The notes under the pieces are model-generated. The model worked only from the letters and a program-made list of their open reading frames with translations. It was not told where the DNA came from and did no database searches. Positions 9,346-55,345 of a DNA stretch of 60,476 nucleotides are shown piece after piece. The first letter of the stretch is position 1; each line of letters opens with the position of its first letter. The translations under genes and the position numbers were made by a program. Origin of the DNA: a virus; IMG/VR virus record IMGVR_UViG_3300005095_000172, positions 80,148 through 140,623 of that record; one strand, written 5' to 3'.

Positions 9346-9831
9346 TGGTGGACGTGTGCGGGAACGATCCGCAGTCCGAAACACCTTTTTGCTTTGAGGA
9401 ATTACAAGTTTATCTTTCAATTTAGTCGGGGGAAGACAACCCAAAACCAGGATTTTAGGAATCCTTAGAAACCCCTCACATACGGCAGTGAAGTGCGCCA
9501 CTCCTGTCTTTTAAAAGACCGAACAAATGGTTCGTGGAGAAATTGGTCGCCTATTATTGTCCGGACGATAACGGACACCCCTGATTACTCAATGGTAACT
9601 GGGAAATGAAGATGGCTCATTTCTTCTGAGTTTTATTTTGCTACGCTATGTGTACTCCACACATTCGATAAGCCGTGACCCTTCTGGTAAACAAGTGGGT
9701 CATTCTTGTCAGGATTAAGCTACTAAAGCTCCTGTGTATGATGTATTGTTTGCATCTATTGAAAAGTTTTAAGTCATAAGACTACTTGCCTCTACACATA
9801 ATCGATGTCACGTCGATACCAAGTCACTCCC
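9346..9831 (-). ncRNA. ssrA: tmRNA (phage ssrA)
   Basis: Complete one-piece tmRNA. The 5' end starts GGGAGTG then GGTATCGACG (usual GGATTCGACG); the 3' end is TTTCGGAC then a T-arm and CACGTCCACCA with encoded CCA. The acceptor helix keeps the G3-U70 pair recognised by alanyl-tRNA synthetase, with one A-G mismatch. The resume codon is GCA at 9751-9753 and the tag reads ANNTSYTGALVA followed by TAA (9715-9717), preceded by AATAGAT as in E. coli. The T-loop is ATCGTTC, i.e. A54/U58, shared with nine tRNAs here. At 486 nt it is longer than E. coli (363), mostly 3' of the tag. Confidence 0.93.
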
Positions 9832-13759: not shown

Positions 13760-15259
13760 TTATAGTTCAATACTTTCAATTTCTTTCACTAAAGCGTCTT
13801 TATCATTCCAAATCTTAGGGATGATTTTCAACATTCTATCAGAATACCCAGTTACTTCTAGTACATTATCATTCAACTTCAAAGGCGTTCCATTTCCGTA
13901 CCCTTCTAAATTCCAGAATAAAACTTTAACCTTTGGGTTTATCTTTCTATATTCTTTCATGGTATCATTGAAACTTACTCCGTTTCCACCCCAAGAAGTT
14001 CCAATTTCATTTTCTTGCATATCAGTAAATATAATGAGTTTATCAACGAAAATACTTTTCTTAACTAATTCAGACACTGCAGAAGATAGATTAGTTCCAC
14101 CACCTTTAGAATATGTATTAGTAATGAAATTCATTGGTGAATCGATTTCAACTCTTCTTGGAGTAGTTGCCCAAAGATATCCAATCACATTATCTTTATC
14201 TAAGCCAGAAATCATACTAGCCATCATGACTTTTCCAAGACTAAACGGCGACTTAGAGAATACATAACCAGAACCCATGGAAGCAGATTCATCAAGAAGT
14301 AAAGCTACTCTTTCTCCGTCATTGACAAGATTGAGGTTCTTTCCTGAAATTTTAAATGCTTCTTCAATGACATTCATCACTTTCTTCTGGAAAAATGGGT
14401 CTACTTCATCCAATCTCTTCACTGTTTCATATGCCTGAGCAAATCTAAAAGGAAGTACTCTAGATTTCAAGATTCTATTTTCATCACCTAAAAGACCAAC
14501 AAGCAAATCAATAGTTTCTCTATCTGGACCTGCTTCAAGGATATTCTTGACATTCTTTAGAGCAGCCATATATCCAAGTTTATTATTTTTCAGCATATCT
14601 TTATAAGCCGATATTCTATCTTCACTTCCAGCATTTACTGTTTGCGCAGTTTGAATACTAGGGAGACGACCTTCGAGTGCCTGTTTAAACATCAATCTTT
14701 GTTCATCTGTAGTAGGTGTTGGGTGAGAGATGTTAATCAAATTAGACACCTTCACAGAACCGTTCCCAAAGTACTTCTTTAATTGATATTTATCCCACTT
14801 AGTCTCTAGTGCCATCTTAATAGCCTTTCTAAGTGAATTAGGAATCATCTTTCCTGGATTTCTTTGATTCCACAAAGCGACAATTTCAGTAGCATCATCT
14901 GGTCTAATTAGAGTTTTATAAAAAGCTCTTTTAGTAAAAGAAAATCCCTTGAATCTTTCTGCAACAAGAACAGCAAGAAGATGAGAAACAGAACGGAGAT
15001 TTCCTTCATTTCTCACATACACCATAGCCTTAGCAAGGAATTTCTTGAAATCCAAATCTTCTTCAGAGAAAAAAGATTCAATGTTTTTCATTCTTTCTTG
15101 TTCAGTCTCATAGTATGAATCACTAATTAACAATGAATTCATGATGATAGAAACGAATTCCTTTTTAACATCAGTTCTTTCAAATGCTGGGAAACCTTCT
15201 TTATTTTCAGAGTTTGGGATAGAATTAACTCCCTTATTAGATGTGTTAAATTTTGCCAT
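13760..15259 (-). CDS. rsr: Ro60/TROVE RNA-binding protein (Rsr)
   Basis: 499 residues. The N-terminal HEAT-like TROVE ring has the usual landmarks (VYVRNEGNLRS..HLLAVL, KTLIRPDDATEIV, LRKAIKMAL, YQLKKYFG), followed by a von Willebrand A domain with an intact MIDAS (ALLLDESASMGSG; DxSxS) near 375. Ro60 binds misfolded RNAs and Y RNAs, and in bacteria can tether PNPase. The frame opens further upstream with TTG at 15326-15328, but the ATG at 15257-15259 has AAGGA 7 nt before it, and the earlier start would lie inside the adjacent Y RNA. Four Y-like RNAs lie just upstream. Ro60 genes are known in some phages but are uncommon. Confidence 0.93.
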   Translation of the reverse strand: MAKFNTSNKGVNSIPNSENKEGFPAFERTDVKKEFVSIIMNSLLISDSYYETEQERMKNIESFFSEEDLDFKKFLAKAMVYVRNEGNLRSVSHLLAVLVAERFKGFSFTKRAFYKTLIRPDDATEIVALWNQRNPGKMIPNSLRKAIKMALETKWDKYQLKKYFGNGSVKVSNLINISHPTPTTDEQRLMFKQALEGRLPSIQTAQTVNAGSEDRISAYKDMLKNNKLGYMAALKNVKNILEAGPDRETIDLLVGLLGDENRILKSRVLPFRFAQAYETVKRLDEVDPFFQKKVMNVIEEAFKISGKNLNLVNDGERVALLLDESASMGSGYVFSKSPFSLGKVMMASMISGLDKDNVIGYLWATTPRRVEIDSPMNFITNTYSKGGGTNLSSAVSELVKKSIFVDKLIIFTDMQENEIGTSWGGNGVSFNDTMKEYRKINPKVKVLFWNLEGYGNGTPLKLNDNVLEVTGYSDRMLKIIPKIWNDKDALVKEIESIEL

Positions 15260-15296
15260 TTTCATTTCCTTTAGTTCTAATTCATTTAGACGATTT

Positions 15297-15461
15297 AAGT
15301 CTTTTAAAAGCAAAATGAAATCGCTCAAAAGTTTTTTATGTCTGGTGCTCTACCAACTGAGCTAATCCCCTCCAAGAGAGGATACCGGACTCGAACCGAT
15401 GACATCCAGGGTTCAGATTACGATGTAATTTTGAGCTGTAATTTTTGCTTTTAAAAGACTT
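15297..15461 (-). ncRNA. Y RNA 1 (YrlA-type, permuted tRNA-like domain)
   Basis: Lies 38 nt upstream of rsr on the same strand. A perfect 15-bp closing stem (AAGTCTTTTAAAAGC with its complement) leads to an internal loop with ATTACA on the 5' side and GATTTCA on the 3' side, then a second stem (GCTCAAAA/TTTTGAGC). The inner domain is a tRNA in permuted order: T-arm CGGTTCGAGTCCG, 3' acceptor strand ATCCTCT, a short loop, 5' acceptor strand AGGGGAT, D-arm GCTCAGTTGGTAGAGC, then anticodon-stem halves CCAG/CTGG opening outward. The acceptor pairs fully and includes a G3-U70-type pair. This is the layout of bacterial YrlA RNAs, which mimic tRNA and bind Ro60. Confidence 0.88.
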
Positions 15462-19160: not shown

Positions 19161-20057
19161 ATAGTTTTGGTTGCAGTGCGTCGGTACTGCCCCGACCTAA
19201 ACGAGCGTATGAGACTCGTAAGAACTCTATGCCTTCCGCCTGCTTTAAAGAATGCGCCACGAAGTTCGTTTTTAAAGTGGTGAATAACGTGTAAAGACCA
19301 CTACCTTTCGCACCGCTGGTTAGGCAGCACTTACTATTTTTGAGTTCGCATTTTGGTTGCTCACTCTCGGCTGTCAAGCCTAACTACACCCCCATTTAGC
19401 CAGTTGGGTCTGCTCAGTTTACCAAAGACTGACACAGAAACACCCGTTCCAACGGACTCTCTTGCAACTCGTTAATGGGAATCGAACCCAAAATGTTCCT
19501 GTGTCAGTCTTCTTTGTAGATATCGACCATTTATGGTCTTCGATTACGAACACTTTCCACTTTCAAGAAGTTTCGGAGTTATTCGACTACTTGAGCCCAA
19601 AGGCTTATTCAATGATGTCGGAGAGACCGTCCTGCTACCCAGCATAGCGTTCATAATCAGGATTAAATGTCCTTAATAGACACCGCTGGCACCTGACTTT
19701 CACCATTGAATAAACCTTAATGATTTATTTTTAGTTGGTTGAGACTACACCGTCTATAGAATTCCTTTGATCGGATTATTAGTTCCCGATTTTGTCCACT
19801 CACCGTTTCCAGTTAGTAGAATTCCGTGACTGCTTTTGTTTAGGCTTTCGCCAGCAAGTAGCGTTTCTTGCGTCCCCATTAACTACTCCTATGTTCCTAT
19901 CCAGTCAGGCTTGCGACCTGCGAACTTCCGCTAAGAAGACCCTTCAATTATCCACAGAACAACTTCAGCCTTGCGAGCTTCCATTGTCCTCATTCCCACA
20001 TTATGGGTGCGGACTTAAGCCACTTTCGTTAATGAGCGAGGGAGACTTTGCATTTAA
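19161..20057 (-). ncRNA. Large structured RNA region L2 (candidate)
   Basis: About 900 nt with no credible gene, between two tRNAs. GC content is higher than in the coding regions and paired elements are many. One sub-domain (19425-19511) is closed by an AAGACTGACACAG stem and contains a T-arm (GGGTTCGATTCCC) followed by CCGTTGGAACGG, again T-arm before D-arm-like hairpin as in Y RNA 1, but without the ATTACA/GATTTCA loop. Long tRNA-adjacent RNAs of this kind in phages include the GOLLD and ROOL classes; membership not testable here. Confidence 0.5.
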
Positions 20058-20126
20058 TTGATATATTGGATTTGAACCAATACTAACAGACCCTAATTCT
20101 GTCGCTCTACCATTAAGCAAATATCT
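20058..20126 (-). tRNA. tRNA with UAG anticodon (class I scaffold)
   Basis: Acceptor GATATTT/ATATATC (6 of 7 paired), D-arm, ACAGA/TCTGT anticodon stem with loop ATTAGGG giving anticodon UAG (reads CUA), canonical T-loop TTCAAAT, no encoded CCA. A short variable loop is abnormal for Leu, and a proper class II tRNA-Leu(UAG) exists at 32942. Identity uncertain. Confidence 0.6.
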
Positions 20127-20700
20127 AGTTGACAAGGACACGCTCCCTCAGGAGTTCCCACAACTTTTGGTCGCAGGAATGCTCCGCATCCTTTGTCATT
20201 TCCTCTAACAGAGTACTTTGACCATCTTATAAGTTACTCAGCCCTTACGGACTTTTTACTTATAAGATTGACATACAGCCCTTGTGCGTTACCACTCAAA
20301 CCGTATATCCCCTGATTCGACTTTCGACTTCTTACAGATTTTGCGTGTGATAGTTCCCTTGCAGGGGAACAGGGCTCCTACAGCGTTGCCCTCGGAATCC
20401 TTTTTCTCACTCTGTCGTTCAGTCTGAGTTCCACCTTAGTGAAACCACAGAGTCGTCAGTTTTTTGTACATGGTGATATCAACACGATACCCGATGGCCA
20501 GTCACGACCACCTTTCTCCCATTTCTGGGAATATCCTAACGACCATACACAGCCGGAAGGGATAATTACTGTCAAGCATTGGCTTTATTTTCACGGGACG
20601 AACCCTTGTGTTTTATACCAACTAAAGTAAAACCCTTCAAGGAGAGGAAATTAAAAGAAAGGCTAGTTCCTCTCCTTGAAAGGTTCAGAAAAGTCTTGAG
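20127..20700 (-). ncRNA. Large structured RNA region L3 (candidate)
   Basis: About 570 nt without a gene. At its 5' side (20638-20692) is an 18-bp hairpin pairing CTTCAAGGAGAGGAA with its complement. Further helices include CTTATAAGT...ACTTATAAG and CCCTGTTCCCCTGCAAGGG. Several GNRA-like turns. It follows S1 RNA and its promoter on the same strand. Candidate GOLLD/ROOL-type ornate RNA; unverified. Confidence 0.5.
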
Positions 20701-21195: not shown

Positions 21196-21440
21196 ATAAA
21201 TCATATTCTCAATAGGCTGTACACCCTATTGAGTTCGTGATATTGACTAGATATCACTAGGCTTGTTGTGTTTTACTCATCCTTGGGGTGAGCGGTAAGT
21301 CCTGAGCCTTGCTACTACCTTTCTCCTCCAATTTCAGGATATTGGCATCCTCCAGTTAGTCAGTACTGAATGAAGTAAACCTATAAATTTACTTTATTCA
21401 ACACTGGATTGAAACCTAATTAATTCGGAAGAGTACTCCG

Positions 21441-21528
21441 TTGGCAGGACAGGATTTGAACCTGCGATGGGCATTAAAAACCACTCGGTTATGAGCCGAG
21501 ATCCTTCGACCACTCGGAACACCTGCCA
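21441..21528 (-). tRNA. Class II tRNA with CAU anticodon
   Basis: Acceptor TGGCAGG/CCTGCCA, Ser-like D-arm (TTCCGAGTGGTCGAAGGA), stem CTCGG/CCGAG with loop CTCATAA (anticodon CAU), long variable region, T-loop TTCAAAT, no encoded CCA. A CAU anticodon on a Ser/Leu-like scaffold is odd; identity open. Confidence 0.7.
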
Positions 21529-32373: not shown

Positions 32374-32450
32374 TGGGGTGATAGACGGGGAACGATCCCG
32401 CAACCTTCGGTGCCACAAACCGACACTCTACCAATTGAGCTACTATCACC
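32374..32450 (-). tRNA. tRNA-His(GUG)
   Basis: Extra 5' G (G-1) opposite C73, as histidine tRNAs require; loop TTGTGGC. T-loop is ATCGTTC: A54/U58 variant. CCA encoded. Confidence 0.92.
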
Positions 32451-32461
32451 ATAAATTTCAA

Positions 32462-32525
32462 GAACAACTCATATTTTAGTTAAAACTCGTTGAAATTTAT
32501 ATTTTAACTAAAATATGAGTTGTTC
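32462..32525. repeat. Long perfect inverted repeat
   Basis: About 25-bp arms (AAGAACAACTCATATTTTAG... and complement) around a 16-nt loop, just 5' of tRNA-His. It includes the end of the 34-residue ORF. Could be an RNase III-type processing hairpin for the tRNA transcript. Confidence 0.8.
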
Positions 32526-32608
32526 TTGTGCTTGACTTTCCTCTTATAAACTTTACCGTTCTTATAAGAACACTTAGCGTTGGTGTTTCCTGGTTTTCTA
32601 ATTCTCAT
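32504..32608 (-). CDS. Small basic peptide
   Basis: 34 residues, Lys/Arg/Asn-rich (RIRKPGNTNAKCSYKNGKVY...). GGAG 6 nt before ATG. Its last codons lie in the inverted repeat. Confidence 0.4.
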   Translation of the reverse strand: MRIRKPGNTNAKCSYKNGKVYKRKVKHKNNSYFS

Positions 32609-32642
32609 TTAACACTCCAATCGAAAGTCACAAAGAGATTAC

Positions 32643-32756
32643 TTAGTAAGGAAAATCTCCCAGTAACTTAGCAAACATTTTCTTTTTTAGGTCAGAATCA
32701 GCCAAAACATACAATTCTAACAACTCTCGTTTAGACAATTTACTTAAAACTTCCAT
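32643..32756 (-). CDS. Small hypothetical peptide
   Basis: 37 residues (EVLSKLSKRELLELYVLADSD ...), helical. An AGGAG lies about 12 nt upstream, a little far. Possible. Confidence 0.35.
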   Translation of the reverse strand: MEVLSKLSKRELLELYVLADSDLKKKMFAKLLGDFPY

Positions 32757-32788
32757 TAATGTCCCATTCTCCTGTCCTTAAAATGATT

Positions 32789-32858
32789 TGGTACTCCGTG
32801 AGGGTAACGATCCCACATCTTGAGTTTCGAAGACTCAATAGCGTCCTTCGCACAGAGC
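32789..32858 (-). tRNA. tRNA-Arg(UCG)
   Basis: Acceptor GCTCTGT/ACGGAGT, very short D-arm (GCG/CGC), loop CTTCGAA, T-loop ATCGTTA (A54/U58), ACCA end. Only 70 nt. Confidence 0.85.
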
Positions 32859-32863
32859 AAATT

Positions 32864-32938
32864 TGGCAGGGTATGGAGGTTACGATCCCCCGACAATGGG
32901 TTTGGAGCCCATTATTTTACCGATTAAACTAATACCCT
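32864..32938 (-). tRNA. tRNA-Trp(CCA)
   Basis: Acceptor AGGGTAT/ATACCCT, G73, loop CTCCAAA, T-loop ATCGTAA (A54/U58), CCA encoded. Confidence 0.92.
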
Positions 32939-32941
32939 ATT

Positions 32942-33028
32942 TGGTGCCGACGGGGAGACTTGAACTCCCACGCATATTTCAGCACTGGTTTCTAAGACCA
33001 GCGTGTCTACCAGTTCCACCACGTCGGC
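32942..33028 (-). tRNA. tRNA-Leu(UAG)
   Basis: Class II. Acceptor GCCGACG/CGTCGGC, loop CTTAGAA, T-loop TTCAAGT (canonical), CCA encoded. Confidence 0.93.
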
Positions 33029-33034
33029 AAATTA

Positions 33035-33120
33035 TGGAGGACAGCATCGGTCCCGACCCGAATGCTTTTACACACGATCACCTTAGCAGGGTGTCCCAGA
33101 CCCCGTCTGGTTTACTGTCC
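33035..33120 (-). tRNA. tRNA-Ser(GCU)
   Basis: Class II. Acceptor GGACAG/CTGTCC, loop CTGCTAA. T-loop GTCGGGA: G54/G58 variant. UCCA end. Confidence 0.85.
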
Positions 33121-33122
33121 TT

Positions 33123-33198
33123 TGGTCGGTCTAAGTGGGCTCGAACCACTGACTTCCATCTTGTAAGGATGACACTCTACCAACTGAGTTATAGACCG
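33123..33198 (-). tRNA. tRNA-Val(UAC)
   Basis: Acceptor CGGTCTA/TAGACCG, loop CTTACAA, canonical T-loop TTCGAGC, CCA encoded. Confidence 0.93.
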
Positions 33199-33200
33199 AA

Positions 33201-33275
33201 TGGATGAGGTAGAGGGTTACGATCCCCCGATACGAGAGTCAAAGTCTCGTGTGTTGCCGATTACACTATACCTCA
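33201..33275 (-). tRNA. tRNA-Gln(UUG)
   Basis: Acceptor TGAGGTA/TACCTCA, loop CTTTGAC, T-loop ATCGTAA (A54/U58), CCA encoded. Confidence 0.92.
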
Positions 33276-33302
33276 AAAATGAAGTGAAGTTTGAACTTCT
33301 TT

Positions 33303-33378
33303 TGGAGCGGATGAACGGCTACGATCCGTCAACCTTCGATTTGGAAAAACGACGCTCTACCTATTGAGCTACATCCGC
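33303..33378 (-). tRNA. tRNA-Gly(UCC)
   Basis: Acceptor GCGGATG/CATCCGC, loop TTTCCAA with one anticodon-stem mismatch, T-loop ATCGTAG (A54/U58), CCA encoded. Confidence 0.9.
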
Positions 33379-33380
33379 AT

Positions 33381-33454
33381 TGGTACCGTGCCTTGGTTCC
33401 GACCCAAGCAATCACTCCTTATGAGAGAGTAACGGACACCAGTCTCCGCACGGC
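33381..33454 (-). tRNA. tRNA with CAU anticodon (Met or Ile2)
   Basis: Acceptor GCCGTGC/GCACGGT, loop CTCATAA, T-loop GTCGGAA (G54/G58), CCA encoded. Could read AUA if C34 is modified to lysidine. Confidence 0.85.
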
Positions 33455-33461
33455 AAAATTA

Positions 33462-33549
33462 TGGTGGGTGTGGTAGAATTTGAATCTACTGAGTATCCAT
33501 GTACTGGTTTTACAGACCAGCGTGACTCCTCCATCGTCACCGCACACCC
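33462..33549 (-). tRNA. tRNA-Tyr(GUA)
   Basis: Class II. Acceptor GGGTGTG/CACACCC, loop CTGTAAA, T-loop TTCAAAT, CCA encoded. Confidence 0.93.
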
Positions 33550-33564
33550 ATAACATTTACTTAT

Positions 33565-33639
33565 TGGTCGGGATGGAGAATTTTGAAATCTCGTCCTCTA
33601 GTTCCCAAAACTAGCACTCTTCCTCTGAGCTACATCCCG
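33565..33639 (-). tRNA. tRNA-Pro(UGG)
   Basis: Acceptor CGGGATG/CATCCCG, loop TTTGGGA, T-loop TTCAAAA with a U-U at 53-61, CCA encoded. Confidence 0.9.
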
Positions 33640-33644
33640 ATATT

Positions 33645-33722
33645 TGGTGACTCCAGCCGGACTCGAACCGAGCAACCTTCGCTGTGAAAGAGCGACGAGG
33701 TAACCAATTCCTCTATGGAGCC
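33645..33722 (-). tRNA. tRNA-Glu(UUC), copy 1
   Basis: Acceptor GGCTCCA/TGGAGTC, loop CTTTCAC, canonical T-loop TTCGAGT, CCA encoded. A second tRNA-Glu(UUC) with the variant T-loop lies at 33893. Confidence 0.92.
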
Positions 33723-33735
33723 AAAAACTTAAAAA

Positions 33736-33811
33736 TGGTGGGACTGAGTGGAATCGAACCACCGACACAAGGATTTTCAATCCTCTGCTCTACCAACTGA
33801 GCTACAGTCCC
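33736..33811 (-). tRNA. tRNA-Phe(GAA)
   Basis: Acceptor GGGACTG/CAGTCCC, loop TTGAAAA, canonical T-loop TTCGATT, CCA encoded. Confidence 0.94.
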
Positions 33812-33815
33812 ATTT

Positions 33816-33889
33816 TGGTCCTCGTACAAGGTAACGCTCCTTGTTTTACCCGTTATCAGCGGATCGTTTTACTTTTAAACTATACGAGG
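33816..33889 (-). tRNA. tRNA-Ile(GAU)
   Basis: Acceptor CCTCGTA/TACGAGG, A73, loop CTGATAA. T-loop AGCGTTA: A54/U58, and position 55 is G, so the near-universal pseudouridine is impossible. Confidence 0.88.
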
Positions 33890-33892
33890 ATA

Positions 33893-33967
33893 TGGTGACT
33901 CCGATGGGTAACGATCCCACTTCTTCTGGTTGAAAACCAGACGACCTAACCTGTAGTCGACGGAGCC
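33893..33967 (-). tRNA. tRNA-Glu(UUC), copy 2
   Basis: Acceptor GGCTCCG/CGGAGTC, stem TCTGG/CCAGA with loop TTTTCAA, T-loop ATCGTTA (A54/U58), CCA encoded. Same anticodon as copy 1 but different body and T-loop type. Confidence 0.92.
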
Positions 33968-33974
33968 AATGTTT

Positions 33975-34049
33975 TGGTGGACTAGGGAGAATCGAACTCA
34001 CTGACATCTTCCTTGCAAGGGAAAATCGCTGAACCCACAGCTCTAGCCC
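33975..34049 (-). tRNA. tRNA-Ala(UGC)
   Basis: Acceptor GGGCTAG/CTAGTCC with G3-U70, loop CTTGCAA, canonical T-loop TTCGATT, CCA encoded. Confidence 0.93.
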
Positions 34050-34061
34050 ATAATTATAAAA

Positions 34062-34137
34062 TGGCGCAGACGACAGGTTACGATCCTGCTCTCTTCGACG
34101 TGACAAGCCGATGCTTTCCCGATTAAGCTACGTCTGC
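34062..34137 (-). tRNA. tRNA-Asp(GUC)
   Basis: Acceptor GCAGACG/CGTCTGC, G73, loop TTGTCAC, T-loop ATCGTAA (A54/U58), CCA encoded. Confidence 0.92.
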
Positions 34138-34139
34138 AT

Positions 34140-34214
34140 TGGTGGTTCCTGAAGGTATCGATCCTTCGTCCCCTGATTAAAAGTCAGGTATTCTTCCAAT
34201 TGAACTAAGGAAAC
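34140..34214 (-). tRNA. tRNA-Lys(UUU)
   Basis: Acceptor GTTTCCT/AGGAACC with one mismatch, loop CTTTTAA, T-loop ATCGATA (A54/A58), CCA encoded. Confidence 0.9.
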
Positions 34215-34216
34215 AT

Positions 34217-34289
34217 TGGTAGGGATAGGATTCGAACCTACATCTGCGGAGGTAGAAGCTCCGTGCATTAATCCAATTATGCTAATCCT
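34217..34289 (-). tRNA. tRNA-Arg(UCU), acceptor mismatched
   Basis: D-arm, anticodon arm (CGGAG/CTCCG, loop CTTCTAC) and T-loop TTCGAAT are sound, but the 3' acceptor strand TATCCCT does not pair well with its own 5' end (AGGATTA). It pairs 7 of 7 with GGGGATA of an orphan 5' half-tRNA at 34990-35024. Its 5' end overlaps the stop codon of the homing-nuclease gene, so it looks like a chimera made by that element. Confidence 0.75.
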
Positions 34290-34962
34290 GCTTTTTCATC
34301 GAAAAATTCTCACATTCTTCTAAAGTAGTTATCCAAATGATATTTCCATATGTTTCATTTAATATATCTATCTTTTCCCTTTGTACTTCAAAAGCATAAG
34401 GATTTTTTGGGTCTAAATAAACATCAAATTCTCCTAAATAAAAATCAGGAAAGTATTTGTGATTTTCCCCATCCATTTCATATACTAATGGTTCTGGTCT
34501 ATTCCACTCTATATTTAAGAAATCGAGCCGTTTAGCTAATGCTAATTCCCATGATGAATCTAATTTTACAATTTCGCCATTTTTCATCATATAATCTATC
34601 ATTTTCCTTCTTAATCTCCTATGATTAGAAGAAAGTGCCTTTTCACTAATAATACACTTAGTTTCTTCAGAATGTGTTTTACCTTTCCAAAATTTTTTCA
34701 CTCTTCCAGAATCATAGCCTTCTTTCAATTTGTTAGAAGCTTTTGAAATTCGTTCATCTGTATCCTTAGTTCTTCCTTTGTTCCATGCAAAGTTCCCATT
34801 TTCAGCCTTAACCTTTCTCATTTCTTCTAAATGTTTCATGTGTTCGTTTCGTTTTGGATTTTTATCACACCACCTACTATGGTTTGCCATAAACCCTTTT
34901 GGTTTGTTGGAAATATCAAATTCTTCCAAACAATATATGCACTTTCTTATATCACAAATCAT
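34282..34962 (-). CDS. Homing endonuclease with NUMOD3-like motif
   Basis: 226 residues. N-terminal Cys-rich unit (CIYCLEEF), repeated NUMOD3-like helices (FAWNKGRTKDTDERIS; FWKGKTHSEETKCIISEKA) that bind DNA, and a C-terminal nuclease-like part (DSSWELALAKRLD, YFPDFYL, VYLDPKN) resembling PD-(D/E)xK/EDxHD homing nucleases. It sits between an orphan tRNA 5' half and tRNA-Arg, consistent with a mobile gene targeting a tRNA. Confidence 0.85.
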   Translation of the reverse strand: MICDIRKCIYCLEEFDISNKPKGFMANHSRWCDKNPKRNEHMKHLEEMRKVKAENGNFAWNKGRTKDTDERISKASNKLKEGYDSGRVKKFWKGKTHSEETKCIISEKALSSNHRRLRRKMIDYMMKNGEIVKLDSSWELALAKRLDFLNIEWNRPEPLVYEMDGENHKYFPDFYLGEFDVYLDPKNPYAFEVQREKIDILNETYGNIIWITTLEECENFSMKKQD

Positions 34963-34989
34963 AAAAACTCCTTTGAGTTATTCAATAAT

Positions 34990-35024
34990 GAAGGCACGTG
35001 TTCTATCCATTGAACTATATCCCC
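34990..35024 (-). pseudogene. Orphan 5' half of a tRNA
   Basis: GGGGATA acceptor strand, D-arm GTTCAATGGATAGAAC and CGTGCCTTC, i.e. a tRNA cut inside its anticodon loop. What follows is the leader of the homing-nuclease gene. Confidence 0.7.
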
Positions 35025-35027
35025 ATA

Positions 35028-35103
35028 TGGAGCTGGATATCGGGAACGATCCGATGACCTACAGTTTACAAAACTGTCGCTCTACCAACTGAGCTAATCC
35101 AGC
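35028..35103 (-). tRNA. tRNA-Thr(UGU)
   Basis: Acceptor GCTGGAT/ATCCAGC, loop TTTGTAA, T-loop ATCGTTC (A54/U58), CCA encoded. Confidence 0.93.
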
Positions 35104-35454: not shown

Positions 35455-35478
35455 ATTATAGCTAAACTTTACTTAAAG
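35455..35478 (-). promoter_or_regulatory. Promoter copy 1 of 3
   Basis: TATAAT 35455-35460 with CTTTAAG 11 nt upstream. Confidence 0.7.
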
Positions 35479-35532
35479 TTAGCTTAAGTCCTTAAACTTA
35501 ATTATTTAGGTTATTTAATAACCAACTTTGAT

Positions 35533-35556
35533 ATTTTAGCTAAACTTTACTTAAAG
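35533..35556 (-). promoter_or_regulatory. Promoter copy 2 of 3
   Basis: TAAAAT 35533-35538 with the same CTTTAAG box and spacer as copies 1 and 3. Confidence 0.6.
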
Positions 35557-35612
35557 TTAGCTTAATTTTAAGGAAATTTATAAAAATCTATTCCTTAATT
35601 TTTGATAATTGA

Positions 35613-35636
35613 ATTATAGCTAAACTTTACTTAAAG
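35613..35636 (-). promoter_or_regulatory. Promoter copy 3 of 3
   Basis: TATAAT 35613-35618 with CTTTAAG 11 nt upstream; box and spacer identical to copy 1. Confidence 0.7.
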
Positions 35637-35664
35637 TTAGCTTAAGTCATGAAACTTTCCTCAT

Positions 35665-39034: not shown

Positions 39035-39463
39035 TTAAGAATCTTTCCTATCTAATTTCAAATCTTCAACAGTTTCATTCCCAAAATATAATGGTTCAGG
39101 GAACTCAGGTAAATCGGAAAAATCGAAATCTTCTGGGATATCATAAGCTAAAGTTATGTGAGGTTTAAATTCATCAAAATCCGAAATGAACCCGTACTTC
39201 TCTACTAAGACTCTATTTCTTTCTACTATGTCCTCAGAACCAATCTCAGCTACTAAAGCTCTTTCACCTGTTTGCCCAAAGACATTATATCCCTTCACAA
39301 TCCCAGAAGCTATATAGTCTTCTGTTTTTATTTCCCCGTCGAATGGCTTTTTACTATAAATAAGCGTCAAATGTGGGTCTGGAGTATGTTTTAAGTCTGG
39401 TAAATAGGTTTCACAGTACTCTTTAAAAACTTCTTCTGAACCATTTACAAGTTTAAGAGACAT
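39035..39463 (-). CDS. acb1: Anti-CBASS 2H phosphoesterase (Acb1-like)
   Basis: 142 residues from the second ATG (SLKLVNG). Two HxT motifs, PDPHLTLIYSKKPF near 31 and FKPHITLAYDI near 105, define the 2H phosphoesterase fold. Size, the IYSKKP extension, a Y/F-D-x-F-KPHIT block and the ending VEDLKLD match T4 Acb1 (57B), which cleaves cyclic oligonucleotide signals of CBASS immunity. Recognised by pattern, not alignment; a general RNA 2',3'-cyclic phosphodiesterase remains possible. Confidence 0.72.
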   Translation of the reverse strand: MSLKLVNGSEEVFKEYCETYLPDLKHTPDPHLTLIYSKKPFDGEIKTEDYIASGIVKGYNVFGQTGERALVAEIGSEDIVERNRVLVEKYGFISDFDEFKPHITLAYDIPEDFDFSDLPEFPEPLYFGNETVEDLKLDRKDS

Positions 39464-39518
39464 ATACACCTTTATCGTATAATTTCTCTTTCACTAAATC
39501 TATCGCTTCCCTAATCAT
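39453..39518 (-). CDS. Possible 21-residue M[IL]RE peptide
   Basis: MIREAIDLVKEKLYDKGVYVS, overlapping the dCMP deaminase stop and the Acb1 start. Repeats the tag almost exactly, so it may be a tag remnant or a real peptide. Confidence 0.35.
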   Translation of the reverse strand: MIREAIDLVKEKLYDKGVYVS

Positions 39519-45741: not shown

Positions 45742-46428
45742 TTAGTTCCTTTTACAAGAGCTTACAATTTTATTCAATTCATTTAGTACTCTTTGAGGGT
45801 TCACTTTTTGACTGTTCTCTAAAAACAATCTATTAAACACCCTTTCAGTTCCTCTAGCCCAAGTGAGGTTATATTCAGAAATGAACCTCAACGCACGATA
45901 CATTCTTAGGTAATCTTCCTGCATTCTTTCTTTAGCATTTCCATTGAATCTAAGTACTCTGTCTCTGATATCCTTTAGACCAAAACCAGTCGGGTCGATG
46001 ATTTCTCCTGTTTTAAGACTAAAGTACAGACTATTGATAGAAAAGTCCCTTCTCATAGCGTCATCTTTCATAGTACCAGTTTCGACTCCTTCCGGTCTTC
46101 GCCCGTTACTATACATACCATCTTTTCTAAACAAAGCAATTTCAAATTCGTGTCTATGACCATTGATCACCTTAGTGGCCATCAGGACTAAGAATTCTTT
46201 CCCCGTTTCTTTGATACTCCAACCAGCCGTTTCAAATGCTTCAGATAAATTATCGTAACCGACATTACCGACGACAAAATCAAAGTCCTTTACCTTTCTA
46301 TTGAAAAGGACGTTCCTAACAGCACCGCCTACTAAATAACTTTCTTCAGTCACTGAAAGAAGAATCATACTCACTTCTAATAGAACAGCATCATTCTCAA
46401 ATAATTCAATTAATCTATGGTCTTTCAT
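45742..46428 (-). CDS. tRNA nucleotidyltransferase-like (CCA-adding type)
   Basis: 228 residues. SYLVGGAVRNVLFNRKVKD then DFDFVVG (catalytic Asp pair), RRDFSINSLYF near 135, IDPTGFGLKDI and EDYLRMYRALRF near 175: the head and neck of class II CCA-adding/poly(A) polymerases. The tail domain is much shortened. With a large tRNA array this suggests 3'-end repair, although most of these tRNAs encode CCA. Own promoter. Confidence 0.85.
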   Translation of the reverse strand: MKDHRLIELFENDAVLLEVSMILLSVTEESYLVGGAVRNVLFNRKVKDFDFVVGNVGYDNLSEAFETAGWSIKETGKEFLVLMATKVINGHRHEFEIALFRKDGMYSNGRRPEGVETGTMKDDAMRRDFSINSLYFSLKTGEIIDPTGFGLKDIRDRVLRFNGNAKERMQEDYLRMYRALRFISEYNLTWARGTERVFNRLFLENSQKVNPQRVLNELNKIVSSCKRN

Positions 46429-46925: not shown

Positions 46926-47957
46926 TTATACATCCTTATTGTAAAGATGGATTAGGAATAGTTCAATCCAATCCATCGTTTCTCTATCCGACTCTTCTGG
47001 TAGAGCACATCTTTCAATTTTATTCTTCACAGTATCAAGTAACGAATTCACTTGTTCCATAACTTCTTCTAATTCTACCTTCCCTTCCTTTACTTCTTTA
47101 ATGCGAGAAGCATCTTTCAATGGGAACTTAATGAAACCAGTGTCGATAAGTTCTTCTACTTCTAAAAGCACCCTCAATGCGTGGGACAGTGCCTTCCAGT
47201 CAGTGCCTCCAACTGAAGCCTTTGTTCTATTACCAAATTGTTCAAACATAGAATTCACATTAGAATAAAAATAACCAACAGTAACATCACCGCTGAATTT
47301 CTTACCTAATACTTCCAAGTAAACAATTGTGTTATCGCCTTTACCAGTTTTTGGGCCAGGAGCTTCAACGAAGTTAATATACTTCTTATCTGAAACAAAT
47401 TCTTCAAGAACAGGAAATAAATACCCCAATTTAGACTCTACTGTCTTACTTGCAACAGTATCTAGTTTTTGAACAAAATCACTAAGTTCTTTATACCTAG
47501 TTCCCTTAATTCCGTATTTTTTAGACTGACCAACAGCATATCCAGTAAATGAATGAAGTCTTCTATTCAAGAACTTTTTATAGTACATTTTAATGTGGTC
47601 TTCGAAGACTGGGTCTATGAATTCAACTGAGTCAGACCACATACTAAATAGGATATCTATTGCTCCTGTTTCACCCTTTCTTAATAGGTTGAAGAACATA
47701 TGTAAAGAAATAAGTTGTAAATCAACATCATCCACGGAATTCTTTTCGTTAGTATTATTCGTGTTAGAAGTCCAGTGTTCTAAATCTTTTTTCAAAAGGA
47801 TATCATCCATCATAGGAACGAAAATCCCTTTATAATCCGTATCAGAAAATTCATTATCTGTACCATATAACTTAGAACCATACTTTGTTACATAAACAAT
47901 TCTGTTCCCAGTTTCATTTTCAAACTCTTCAAGTTTTTTCTTTAATTCTTCATTCAT
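46926..47957 (-). CDS. Predicted nucleotidyltransferase
   Basis: 343 residues. VTKYGSKLYGTDNEFSDTDYKGIFV near 23-47 is the GS...SDxD signature of pol-beta-type nucleotidyltransferases; ISLHMFFNLLRKGETGAIDIL follows as in the phage/YcgL-like family. Substrate unknown, possibly RNA ends. Own promoter at 47980. Confidence 0.8.
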   Translation of the reverse strand: MNEELKKKLEEFENETGNRIVYVTKYGSKLYGTDNEFSDTDYKGIFVPMMDDILLKKDLEHWTSNTNNTNEKNSVDDVDLQLISLHMFFNLLRKGETGAIDILFSMWSDSVEFIDPVFEDHIKMYYKKFLNRRLHSFTGYAVGQSKKYGIKGTRYKELSDFVQKLDTVASKTVESKLGYLFPVLEEFVSDKKYINFVEAPGPKTGKGDNTIVYLEVLGKKFSGDVTVGYFYSNVNSMFEQFGNRTKASVGGTDWKALSHALRVLLEVEELIDTGFIKFPLKDASRIKEVKEGKVELEEVMEQVNSLLDTVKNKIERCALPEESDRETMDWIELFLIHLYNKDV

Positions 47958-53175: not shown

Positions 53176-53715
53176 TTAATTCTCAATTATGATAGCTTCA
53201 TCTACGAATCCACTATTTTTGAAAACTTTGAAGTTTTCCTTAGCAACTTTCACAGTCCTGATTACTTTTTCATCTGGGACTAATCTAGGTTCTCCTTTCT
53301 TATGTCTTTCTAAATTCCTTTTTGAAGCAGTTTTAGGTTCTACATCAACAAGTACCAATACAACTCTCATTCCTGCTTCTTTAGCCCATTTGAACTTATT
53401 TAAAGTGGATTTTATATTATTACCAGTACCCATTTGAACGATTGATATTCTATTATCGAAAGCTTTTAGTAAATTCTTCTTAGATTTAATAGTAGCCCTT
53501 GAAACTTGTTTGCTTCTATCAGTACCATACTCTTCAGCAAATTCAGCCGTGTAAATATCCAAATCTATCAAAGGTAAATTTTTAAAGAACTTTCTATAAG
53601 TATAATTCTTCCCTGAGCCAGTTCCGCCCATCAAAAATATGAAAGTTGGAATTTCTAAGGATTCTCGTTCTATGTCCTTCAACTTAAATTCATCTAAAAT
53701 CTCATTTAAAATCAT
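53176..53715 (-). CDS. Zeta-toxin-like P-loop kinase
   Basis: 179 residues. FIFLMGGTGSGKNYTYRKF near 26 (Walker A), LIDLDIYTAEF near 48, and RVVLVLVDVEPKTASKRNLERH near 118, the layout of zeta-type/AAA_33 kinases. Starts MILNEILDEF, a weak form of the tag. Could phosphorylate a nucleotide sugar or polynucleotide end. Confidence 0.75.
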   Translation of the reverse strand: MILNEILDEFKLKDIERESLEIPTFIFLMGGTGSGKNYTYRKFFKNLPLIDLDIYTAEFAEEYGTDRSKQVSRATIKSKKNLLKAFDNRISIVQMGTGNNIKSTLNKFKWAKEAGMRVVLVLVDVEPKTASKRNLERHKKGEPRLVPDEKVIRTVKVAKENFKVFKNSGFVDEAIIIEN

Positions 53716-53737: not shown

Positions 53738-55345
53738 TTATTTCCCGTGCAAAGAAGAAATAGCTTTTCTCAATATTCCACCAGGATTTTCTTTCCTGAA
53801 ATTCTCACTTACCCCATAAGTCTTCACCAACTCATCATAGAATTTATGAATTTGTTTTGGAGTATTTTTCTTAAAGTAAGAATAATCTGCTAAATTTCTA
53901 ATAACCTTAGTAGCAGACTCATCGTCTTCACCTCTACGAACTTCTTCTACTTGAACATCTAGATTTCTTTTTAGTTGTTCTCTATAATCCTTAACCCTAT
54001 CTGAACCTGCTAAAATGACATTTATGTTCTGAGAAGTCTTATTCAATAAAGTGAACAAATTCCCTGAAGTAGATGTTATAATTTCTACATCAGGATAAAC
54101 TGCTTGGATCATCTTCTTTCTAAGTTCTAAAGTCTTTTTAGTTTCCTTATTAGAAATAAGAGCAACTACTAAAAAGTCTCTTCCTTTCAGTGCTTGTTCA
54201 AACATCTTTTTATGTCCATTAGTAAACACTCTGAATTTCCCAATAACCATCGCACCGTTATTCCCTGGAAGTTTTCTCATAATCATCGATTTAGCTGTTA
54301 ATTGAATATCATCTCTAATATTCAATTCAGTTTTCTTCTTATGGGAAAACTTAACTTGTAAATCTTTATAGACTTTTTTGGAAAGGTCTTTTAAGATTTT
54401 ATGGAACTTTTGATTTAAGTTTAAAGTGCCTATGATTTCTTCTGCAGTTTCTCTCACCTTAATCCAATATTCATCTTCAGACTTCACATCCATTTTATAT
54501 TGTTGTTTAATCTTAAATCTTAGTTCTTTATCATATTGGTCGTCTTGAACAATCTTAAGAATAATGGTTCCGCCAATAGGTTTAGAAAGATGAATTACTA
54601 CTCCTTCTTCCTTTTCAGAACCGTAAAGAGAAGGGATGGTGATAAAGAAGTTCTTTGCTAACTCCCAATACTTCAATGGATCCAAACATTTGAATGAATC
54701 TTTAAAGTCTTTGAAGAATTCCATAGCTCTTGAGTTAAGACCTTTTGGAAGTTCAGTCAGTTTCCCTTTAAAAATGAGTTCAGGGAGATTTAACCCAAGT
54801 ATTTTAGCATACTTTTCTCTTCCTTCCATAACCAAACCATTGGATTTAATGAAAATCCTTCCGTTATTAATCTTATATGAATCAACAGAAGAATATCCAA
54901 TCAGGACTAATTGTCTAAGTTTAGTGTATTTTCTTGTCAGAGTAGGCTTGTTCATAAGGAATTCTACAAAGAATTCAGTGTTCTTCGGAATTGATTTCCA
55001 AGATTTAAAATTATCAGAAATATAGTCAATTATAGTCTTGTATTGAGAAACACCGACAGTTTTATCTAAGTCGGCTTCTGGATGAACATCATAATATTCA
55101 GTGCCATAGATTATATTTCCCTTATAAGAAACAATAAACATATCCCACCAACGAGTATCATTCCATTCAGCGTCAGTTCTAAGAATACTAAGTTTAGTTC
55201 CGTCGTATTTTCCATAAACTTCAATATCTTGATTAATTAAAGATGAAGCACTCTTCTCATCTTTAATTGCCTTATCTACATTCTTTATACTTATGTTTAG
55301 GTATTCGTTAGTCTCATTTACTCTGTTTATTGCTTCTTGTATCAT
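53738..55345 (-). CDS. RNA-ligase-like / nucleotidyltransferase fusion, M[IL]RE-type tag
   Basis: 535 residues. Tag MIQEAINRVNE/TNEY. Near 48, EVYGKYDGTKLSIL is a KxDG ligase motif I, with FFVEFLMNKPTL and EGVVIHL (motif IV-like) following; residues about 370-500 hold an HIGH-type domain (VIGKFRVFTNGHKKMFEQAL; SATKVIRNLA). So an RNA/DNA-ligase-like enzyme joined to a cytidylyl/adenylyltransferase-like domain. Combination suggests RNA or cofactor repair; possibly packaged in the virion. Confidence 0.75.
   Translation of the reverse strand: MIQEAINRVNETNEYLNISIKNVDKAIKDEKSASSLINQDIEVYGKYDGTKLSILRTDAEWNDTRWWDMFIVSYKGNIIYGTEYYDVHPEADLDKTVGVSQYKTIIDYISDNFKSWKSIPKNTEFFVEFLMNKPTLTRKYTKLRQLVLIGYSSVDSYKINNGRIFIKSNGLVMEGREKYAKILGLNLPELIFKGKLTELPKGLNSRAMEFFKDFKDSFKCLDPLKYWELAKNFFITIPSLYGSEKEEGVVIHLSKPIGGTIILKIVQDDQYDKELRFKIKQQYKMDVKSEDEYWIKVRETAEEIIGTLNLNQKFHKILKDLSKKVYKDLQVKFSHKKKTELNIRDDIQLTAKSMIMRKLPGNNGAMVIGKFRVFTNGHKKMFEQALKGRDFLVVALISNKETKKTLELRKKMIQAVYPDVEIITSTSGNLFTLLNKTSQNINVILAGSDRVKDYREQLKRNLDVQVEEVRRGEDDESATKVIRNLADYSYFKKNTPKQIHKFYDELVKTYGVSENFRKENPGGILRKAISSLHGK

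Follow-up and report, generated by a model that had tools for sequence, protein, structure and literature searches.

A transposed 54/58 base pair in the T-loop of a minority of phage tRNAs

Many phages carry a minority of tRNAs in which two bases that are nearly invariant in cellular tRNAs, U54 and A58 of the T-loop, have exchanged places without spoiling the molecule. This form was not found in the bacterial genomes searched here, which points to phage tRNAs being shaped by pressures that host tRNAs do not face. In one phage record, 9 of 27 tRNAs and the tmRNA have A54/U58, and about 2 % of phage tRNAs in a sample not selected for the swap carry it. A literature search, with poor coverage of subscription papers so that novelty is not certain, found no report of A54/U58 in phage tRNAs.

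U54 and A58 are among the most conserved bases of tRNA. A viral tRNA class that transposes them, keeps the fold and was not found in cells suggests that the constraint in cells is not purely structural, and gives a sequence handle on which host factors read the T-arm. Escape from host factors that read the T-arm is our preferred but unproven explanation, and drift between two equivalent folds is a close rival.

Results

A third of the tRNAs in one phage record carry the swap

We analysed a window of 60,476 nucleotides (IMG/VR virus record IMGVR_UViG_3300005095_000172, positions 80,148 to 140,623). A first-pass annotation of this window had described A54/U58 in nine tRNAs and the tmRNA, G54/G58 in two further tRNAs and A54/A58 in tRNA-Lys. 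Reading all loops from the sequence on the minus strand confirms this observation (Table 1). The tmRNA has the T-arm TGCGG-ATCGTTC-CCGCA at 9357-9373. The neighbouring tRNAs (Cys, Leu, Val, Tyr, Glu copy 1, Phe, Ala, Arg-TCT, Met) keep TTCRAN(Y), while Pro is TTCAAAA with a U53.U61 mismatch. All altered tRNAs keep G53-C61 and CCA. Nine of them (His, Trp, Gln, Gly, Ile, Glu copy 2, Asp, Lys, Thr) score 48-65 bits as tRNA (RF00005), above the Rfam gathering score, whereas Arg-TCG, Ser-GCU and the CAT tRNA at 33381-33454 are not listed by Rfam. As a small correction, the tmRNA and five further tRNAs (Asn, Ser-UGA, Leu-UAA, the tRNA-Leu inside GOLLD and a class II CAT tRNA) lie outside the interval 32374-35103 to which the annotation was attached.

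Table 1. Altered T-loops in the window, with one normal copy for comparison
Feature	Coordinates	Strand	T-loop	T-loop coordinates	54/58	Remarks
tmRNA, tRNA-like domain	9346-9831	-	ATCGTTC	9362-9368	A54/U58	RF00023, 57.8 bits
tRNA-His(GTG)	32374-32449	-	ATCGTTC	32390-32396	A54/U58	RF00005, 59.1 bits
tRNA-Arg(TCG)	32789-32858	-	ATCGTTA	32805-32811	A54/U58	short D-arm
tRNA-Trp(CCA)	32864-32938	-	ATCGTAA	32880-32886	A54/U58	
tRNA-Ser(GCT)	33035-33120	-	GTCGGGA	33051-33057	G54/G58	class II; read by hand, missed by ARAGORN
tRNA-Gln(TTG)	33201-33275	-	ATCGTAA	33217-33223	A54/U58	
tRNA-Gly(TCC)	33303-33378	-	ATCGTAG	33319-33325	A54/U58	
tRNA with CAT anticodon	33381-33454	-	GTCGGAA	33397-33403	G54/G58	read by hand, missed by ARAGORN
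tRNA-Glu(TTC) copy 1	33645-33722	-	TTCGAGT		normal	internal comparison for copy 2
tRNA-Ile(GAT)	33816-33889	-	AGCGTTA	33832-33838	A54/U58	G55
tRNA-Glu(TTC) copy 2	33893-33967	-	ATCGTTA	33909-33915	A54/U58	
tRNA-Asp(GTC)	34062-34137	-	ATCGTAA	34078-34084	A54/U58	
tRNA-Lys(TTT)	34140-34214	-	ATCGATA	34156-34162	A54/A58	eukaryotic-initiator-like state
tRNA-Thr(TGT)	35028-35103	-	ATCGTTC	35044-35050	A54/U58	

The number of swapped tRNAs in the window is not due to chance. The swap is found in 14 of 656 tRNAs in viral contigs not selected for it, and at that rate 9 or more of 27 has p = 3e-9. No other locus examined approaches the window, the next best having 6 of 28. To find out whether the swaps are shared by relatives, we searched with proteins of the phage. 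The 294-aa neighbour protein and RlaP found none, while UvsX found six, whose tRNAs are normal except one Lys. Thus the nine swaps are not a trait of the wider lineage.

Positions 54, 58 and 60 change together

In 2,804 distinct viral tRNAs, A54 goes with U58 (194) or A58 (26) and never with C or G. Other deviants are C54-A58 (15), C54-G58 (8), G54-G58 (7) and U54-U58 (2). Position 60 changes as well: it is U in 0 of 194 swapped loops against 2,133 of 2,548 normal ones (p = 2e-139), as expected if a Watson-Crick 54-60 pair must be avoided. The G52-C62 pair is also linked to the swap, being present in 34 of 34 swapped Ile-GAU against 46 of 73 normal. Both this pair and the third linked position, 60, had been missed by the first-pass annotation.

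The swapped genes are not decayed; occurrence only in decayed copies had been named beforehand as a condition that would refute the idea, and this condition does not hold. CCA is encoded in 192 of 194, G53-C61 is kept in 193 of 194, and the mean number of T-stem pairs is 4.80 of 5. U55-C56, for contacts with G18 and G19, is found in 182 of 194 swapped loops and G55-C56 in the other 12, and the D-loop GG is kept in 0.89 of 99 swapped tRNAs. A swapped Asp family of 31 sequences has all acceptor and anticodon-stem pairs intact with many compensatory changes.

The swap is found in phages of many hosts but not in the cellular genomes searched

A 19-base pattern of the swapped tRNA-Asp hit at least 120 viral contigs. 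The same pattern gave only 4 matches, none of them a tRNA, in 84,980 bacterial and archaeal genomes. A general pattern gave 11 non-tRNA matches in 199 Bacillota genomes, where the normal pattern gives about 515 matches in 26 genomes. This control was run across Bacillota because in Streptococcus, whose tRNA genes do not encode CCA, it returned zero normal tRNAs.

Swapped tRNAs are found in isolated phages: Vibrio phages Ceto, VPG01 and SRILMA, Aeromonas Aes012, Pseudomonas Astolliot, Acinetobacter AM24, Bacillus CM1, Salmonella SB9, E. coli BB1 and pEC-M2929, and Serratia X20. T5 itself has no swapped loop, and the FelixO1 region examined held no annotated tRNAs. In the unselected sample the swap is found mostly in class I isoacceptors (Ile-GAU, Thr-GGU, His, Phe, Glu). 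About 20 isoacceptors show it, with a strong bias: 30 % of Ile-GAU but 0 % of Leu, Ser, Arg and Cys.

The form also differs between close relatives. T5 and its relative BB1 carry the same tRNA-Phe, identical over the first 47 nt but differing at 6 of 17 T-arm positions, with T5 normal and BB1 swapped. In the loop, chee24 differs from BB1 by the 54/58 exchange alone. The T5 and BB1 alleles are a natural test pair, which makes the question testable in E. coli.

We also asked whether the swapped tRNA is a spare copy beside a normal one, as for Glu in the window and Lys in the relative. This arrangement is only weakly enriched: 22 of 226 swapped tRNAs are accompanied by a second tRNA of the same anticodon, against 164 of 2,442.

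Comparison with known T-loops and phage tRNAs

Like the canonical bacterial T-loop (U54.A58 trans Watson-Crick/Hoogsteen pair), the swapped form has a 7-nt loop on a 5-bp stem with G53-C61, U55, C56, R57 and the D-loop GG. However, A54 and U58 are transposed, position 60 is not U and G52-C62 is strongly favoured. Compared by sequence, the swapped loop lacks the m5U54 and m1A58 acceptors, U54 being required by TrmA, and fails the published TruB substrate consensus 53-GUUYRANYC-61 (PMC7912444). Eukaryotic initiator tRNA uses an A54.A58 pair (PMC7912444). A54 with A58 is present in the Lys of the window (ATCGATA) and in 26 viral tRNAs, and the Asp of Astolliot (ATCGAAA) keeps A58 as well, but the A54/U58 class goes on to U58 and is found in many elongator isoacceptors and the tmRNA.

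Changed phage tRNAs proposed to resist tRNA-directed defence have been described with alterations in the anticodon loop that evade anticodon nucleases (eLife 2023, PMC10264068). Here the change is in the T-loop, no T-loop terms were found in that paper, and no nuclease is linked yet. Phage tRNA supply against retron-Eco7 and T5 tRNA-Lys against PARIS (PMC11555353, PMC12409363) likewise involve isoacceptor-specific tRNA use by T5-like phages, with no role of positions 54/58 seen.

Discussion

We interpret these genes as intact phage tRNAs that use an alternative T-loop. The sequences establish that the 54.58 pair is transposed, that position 60 is then never U, that G53-C61 is kept and G52-C62 goes with the swap, and that nearly all loops keep U55, C56 and R57 with G18G19 in the D-loop, so the elbow should still form. 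They also establish that the form recurs in phages of many hosts, differs between close relatives and was not found in the cellular genomes searched. It is inferred, in contrast, that the elbow surface read by the ribosome, RNase P and synthetases is kept while the loop interior read by modification enzymes differs: A54 cannot be m5U, U58 cannot be m1A and the loop no longer fits the TruB consensus. The evidence that they function as transcribed, processed and aminoacylated tRNAs is limited to conservation and compensation. Least certain is the inference that phages gain by making selected tRNA species invisible to host factors that read the T-arm, either modification enzymes or tRNA-targeting defence nucleases, so that selection would act one tRNA species at a time and vary from phage to phage.

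We hold this last explanation only tentatively. Isoacceptor bias and the need for three changes argue against plain decay. Defence nucleases read tRNA outside the anticodon, AriB the D-loop (PMC12409363) and Cas12a3 the T-arm (PMC12851939), and the window phage carries RlaP, a poly(A)-polymerase/CCA-type head domain and Acb1, fitting a history of RNA-directed defence. However, to our knowledge no nuclease or defence system depends on U54/A58, and Cas12a3 contacts the T-arm backbone. Swapped and normal alleles coexist in T5-like phages of the same hosts (for E. coli, for example, TrudiRoth against TrudiGerster and IrmaTschudi), which drift would also give, and swapped tRNAs are only slightly more often accompanied by a second tRNA of the same anticodon. 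No TruB or TrmA was detected in the phage record, which is neutral for this idea.

The interpretation offered by the first-pass annotation, that selection keeps a tertiary pair while removing the m5U54 and m1A58 sites, possibly to escape tRNA-targeting defence or modification enzymes or to mark phage tRNAs, is thus partly supported. The paired change is a compensated structural swap under selection, recurs in many unrelated phages including isolates and removes both acceptors, but that escape from modification or from a nuclease is the reason remains a hypothesis. A general phage mark is unlikely, because most tRNAs in the same arrays stay normal and the choice follows isoacceptor and tRNA class. 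A broader reading is not excluded but is unlikely: that phages as a group hold a T-loop form absent from cellular tRNAs, gained and lost repeatedly one isoacceptor at a time, because an unrecognised class of bacterial anti-phage effectors, or modification-dependent tRNA surveillance, reads U54/A58 in the T-arm and the swap is its counter-measure.

Drift is almost as plausible as the explanation we prefer. In this view U54.A58 and A54.U58 are two stable states joined through A54.A58, and phage tRNAs, used briefly and weakly, cross between them while cellular tRNAs cannot. A54-A58 intermediates are the commonest other deviants and U54-U58 is nearly absent, the same tRNA-Phe is swapped in some T5-like phages and normal in others, both alleles live in the same hosts, and 60 of 211 swapped tRNAs are closer outside the loop to a normal tRNA than to any swapped one. 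However, single-step deviants such as C54-A58 should outnumber a change that needs at least three substitutions, whereas the unselected sample has 14 A54-U58, 4 A54-A58 and 2 C54-A58. The strong isoacceptor bias and the 9 of 27 in one phage also argue against drift.

Spread by descent, in which a few phage-specific tRNA lineages (Phe, Asp, His, Ile) acquired the loop long ago and were traded among phages, is an unlikely main cause. The tRNA-Phe T-arm GTTGGATCGTTACCAAC recurs in Acinetobacter, Bacillus, E. coli, Serratia and Vibrio phages, and the Asp family forms a recognisable group. However, about 20 isoacceptors show the swap, and the Trp, Gln, Gly, Ile, Glu and Thr of the window are closer outside the loop to normal tRNAs than to any swapped relative in the set compared. 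Descent explains spread, not why the state is kept.

Less likely still, the altered loop may tune a normal translation step such as EF-Tu or ribosome use, or maturation speed without T-loop modification during a short infection. The A54.A58 pair of eukaryotic initiator tRNA shows that this pair can vary in a specialised tRNA, and the tmRNA of the window is also swapped, but swapped tRNAs span many elongator isoacceptors with no shared codon role seen.

An artefact (decayed genes, misaligned loops or a DNA-level cause such as restriction or avoidance of a TTCGA site), although ARAGORN misses some of these genes, is contradicted by the covariation at 54, 58 and 60, the compensated stems and encoded CCA, the normal TTCGA loops in the same array and the lack of a DNA word common to ATCGT and the A54/A58 and G54/G58 classes. 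The tRNA annotation of phages is nevertheless biased: several swapped tRNA-Phe genes in T5-like records are not annotated.

The T-loops of the phage tRNA array

To verify the unusual T-loops in the window (bases 80148-140623 of a 140,623-base viral record), every loop was read again from the sequence. ARAGORN finds 25 tRNAs, all on the minus strand, and Rfam adds a tmRNA. Two further tRNAs, Ser-GCU and a tRNA with a CAT anticodon, were read by hand. Eight tRNAs carry A54-U55-C56-G57-U58, Ile carries A54-G55-C56-G57-U58, Ser-GCU and one CAT tRNA carry G54/G58, Lys carries A54/A58, and the tmRNA loop is ATCGTTC. The observation made in the first-pass annotation, a transposition of the normal U54/A58 in many of these tRNAs, is thus confirmed. 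The features with coordinates are collected in the table below.

Features noted in the window and in other phage loci, with positions in the window unless a locus is named
Position	Strand	Feature
13760-15328, 39035-39469, 45742-46428, 46926-47957, 53176-53715	-	RNA-care and counter-defence genes: TROVE (Ro-like), Acb1 anti-CBASS, poly(A)-polymerase head domain, RlaP, and a Zeta/AAA kinase
19736-20194	-	GOLLD RNA with a tRNA-Leu(TAG) inside it
21440-21528	-	Class II tRNA with long variable arm and Ser-like body but anticodon CAT and no encoded CCA; one of three CAT tRNAs in the window
32457-32530		Long inverted repeat beside tRNA-His
33035-33120		tRNA-Ser(GCU), G54/G58, read by hand
33381-33454		tRNA with CAT anticodon, G54/G58, read by hand
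33565-33639	-	tRNA-Pro with a U53.U61 mismatch at the T-loop closing pair
about 35458-35645		Three copies of a palindromic repeat atagctaaactttacttaaagttagcttaa downstream of the array
53738-55345		Protein with a ligase-like KYDG motif, seen by eye
L362:1494-1568, L365:1494-1568		Swapped tRNA-Phe genes left unannotated in GenBank records of T5-like and Serratia phages

Linked changes at positions 54, 58 and 60

The altered tRNAs are not decayed genes, the possibility that the first-pass annotation had named as a refutation. In 2,804 distinct viral tRNAs collected for this analysis, positions 54 and 58 change together: A54-U58 is found 194 times, A54-A58 26, C54-A58 15, C54-G58 8, G54-G58 7 and U54-U58 2, while A54 is never found with C or G. 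The A54-U58 count is inflated by searching for that loop, but the absence of other combinations is not. A third position is linked to the swap, since base 60 is U in 2,133 of 2,548 normal loops and in 0 of 194 swapped ones, where it is A, C or G. The simplest reading, which is an inference, is that 54 and 60 must not form a Watson-Crick pair, as this would lengthen the stem and destroy the T-loop. A fourth feature is G52-C62, present in 34 of 34 swapped Ile-GAU tRNAs against 46 of 73 normal ones. CCA is encoded in 192 of the 194 swapped tRNAs and the T-stem is nearly perfect.

A family of 31 swapped tRNA-Asp genes has every acceptor and anticodon-stem pair intact through many compensatory changes, and only pair 49-65 is not standard. 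The swapped tRNA-Asp family of viral contigs (L258-L339, for example tRNA-Asp GGTCTTAAAGTGTTCATGGACGC...) also shows A8/U14 (or G8/G14) and C15-G48 in place of U8/A14 and R15-Y48. Thus other tertiary pairs may be transposed as well, although the D-loop numbering in these sequences is uncertain.

Prevalence among phages

In viral contigs fetched without regard to the swap, 14 of 656 tRNAs carry A54-U58. With anchor isoacceptors excluded, the share is 30% for Ile-GAU, 19% for Thr-GGU, 11% for His and 8% for Phe and Glu, with none for Leu, Ser, Arg or Cys. Class II tRNAs have 1 of 509 against 98 of 2,169 for class I. These shares come partly from contigs chosen for holding a swapped tRNA and are therefore upper values. 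The window, with 9 of 27, is the extreme case. The swap is found in isolated phages, namely Vibrio Ceto and VPG01 (His), Aeromonas Aes012 (His), Acinetobacter AM24 and Bacillus CM1 (Phe) and Pseudomonas Astolliot (Val, Met), and also in the Prevotella phage Lak-A2 genome assembled from metagenomic data (Pro). Hosts therefore span Gram-negative and Gram-positive bacteria. Like the window, AM24 also has GOLLD RNA, beside its tRNA array.

Searches of cellular genomes

A 19-base pattern for swapped tRNA-Asp matches at least 120 viral contigs, with 117 of 121 matches lying in ARAGORN tRNAs. The same pattern, searched in one genome for each of 84,980 species, gives four matches, all in Streptococcus and none in a tRNA. 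These tests, together with those that follow, cover genes that encode CCA, one isoacceptor across all phyla and one phylum in general, and do not prove absence everywhere. A general swapped pattern in 199 Bacillota genomes gives 11 matches and no tRNA, while the normal version of the pattern gives about 515 matches in 26 genomes. Finally, the swapped T-arm of T5-like tRNA-Phe has no match in 5,426 E. coli genomes.

A natural test pair of tRNA-Phe alleles

T5 and BB1, both Tequintavirus, have tRNA-Phe at the same place. The first 47 bases are identical and the downstream 350 bases are 95% identical, but 6 of 17 T-arm positions differ: T5 has GTTCG-TTCAATT-CGAAC and BB1 has GTTGG-ATCGTTA-CCAAC. 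Chee24 has GTTCG-TTCGATA-CGAAC, that is, the loop of BB1 with 54 and 58 exchanged and position 60 unchanged. Related tRNA-Phe genes in Acinetobacter, Bacillus, Serratia, Vibrio and other E. coli phages have the swapped loop, so T5 and chee24 look like reversions, although this is inferred without a tree. In the phage collection, 88 records match the BB1-type arm at 99% or more and 64 match the T5-type arm at 99% or more, with 213 more at 90-95%. Many BB1-type genes are not annotated, and ARAGORN misses those of BB1 and X20, which Rfam finds at 33 and 36 bits. The annotation of phage tRNAs is thus biased against this class.

Possible function of the swapped loop

The sequences indicate that the elbow contacts (U55-G18, C56-G19, R57) are kept, while the U54.A58 pair that they stack on is replaced. 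Eukaryotic initiator tRNA uses A54.A58, TruB accepts T-arms with 53-GUUYRANYC-61, and TrmA methylates U54 (PMC7912444). The swapped loop therefore loses the m5U54 and m1A58 acceptors and departs from the TruB consensus. This much follows from the sequence, whereas the modification state of these tRNAs and the reason why phages make the change can only be inferred. The first-pass interpretation, that selection keeps a tertiary pair while removing modification sites, possibly to escape modification enzymes or a tRNA-targeting defence, is partly supported. In the literature that we could search, no paper reports A54/U58 in phage tRNAs, and these tRNAs differ from those described there in their class of T-loop.

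Our preferred explanation, held tentatively, is escape. The isoacceptor bias, the presence of normal tRNAs in the same array and the differences between close relatives fit selection on single tRNA species, as proposed for anticodon-loop variants that evade nucleases (PMC10264068), and some defence nucleases do read the D-loop or T-arm (PMC12409363, PMC12851939). However, no nuclease is known to depend on 54 or 58, and drift between two equivalent folds, which we consider only slightly less likely, explains the apparent reversibility and the A54.A58 intermediates almost as well. The phage also carries RlaP, a poly(A)-polymerase head domain, TROVE and Acb1.
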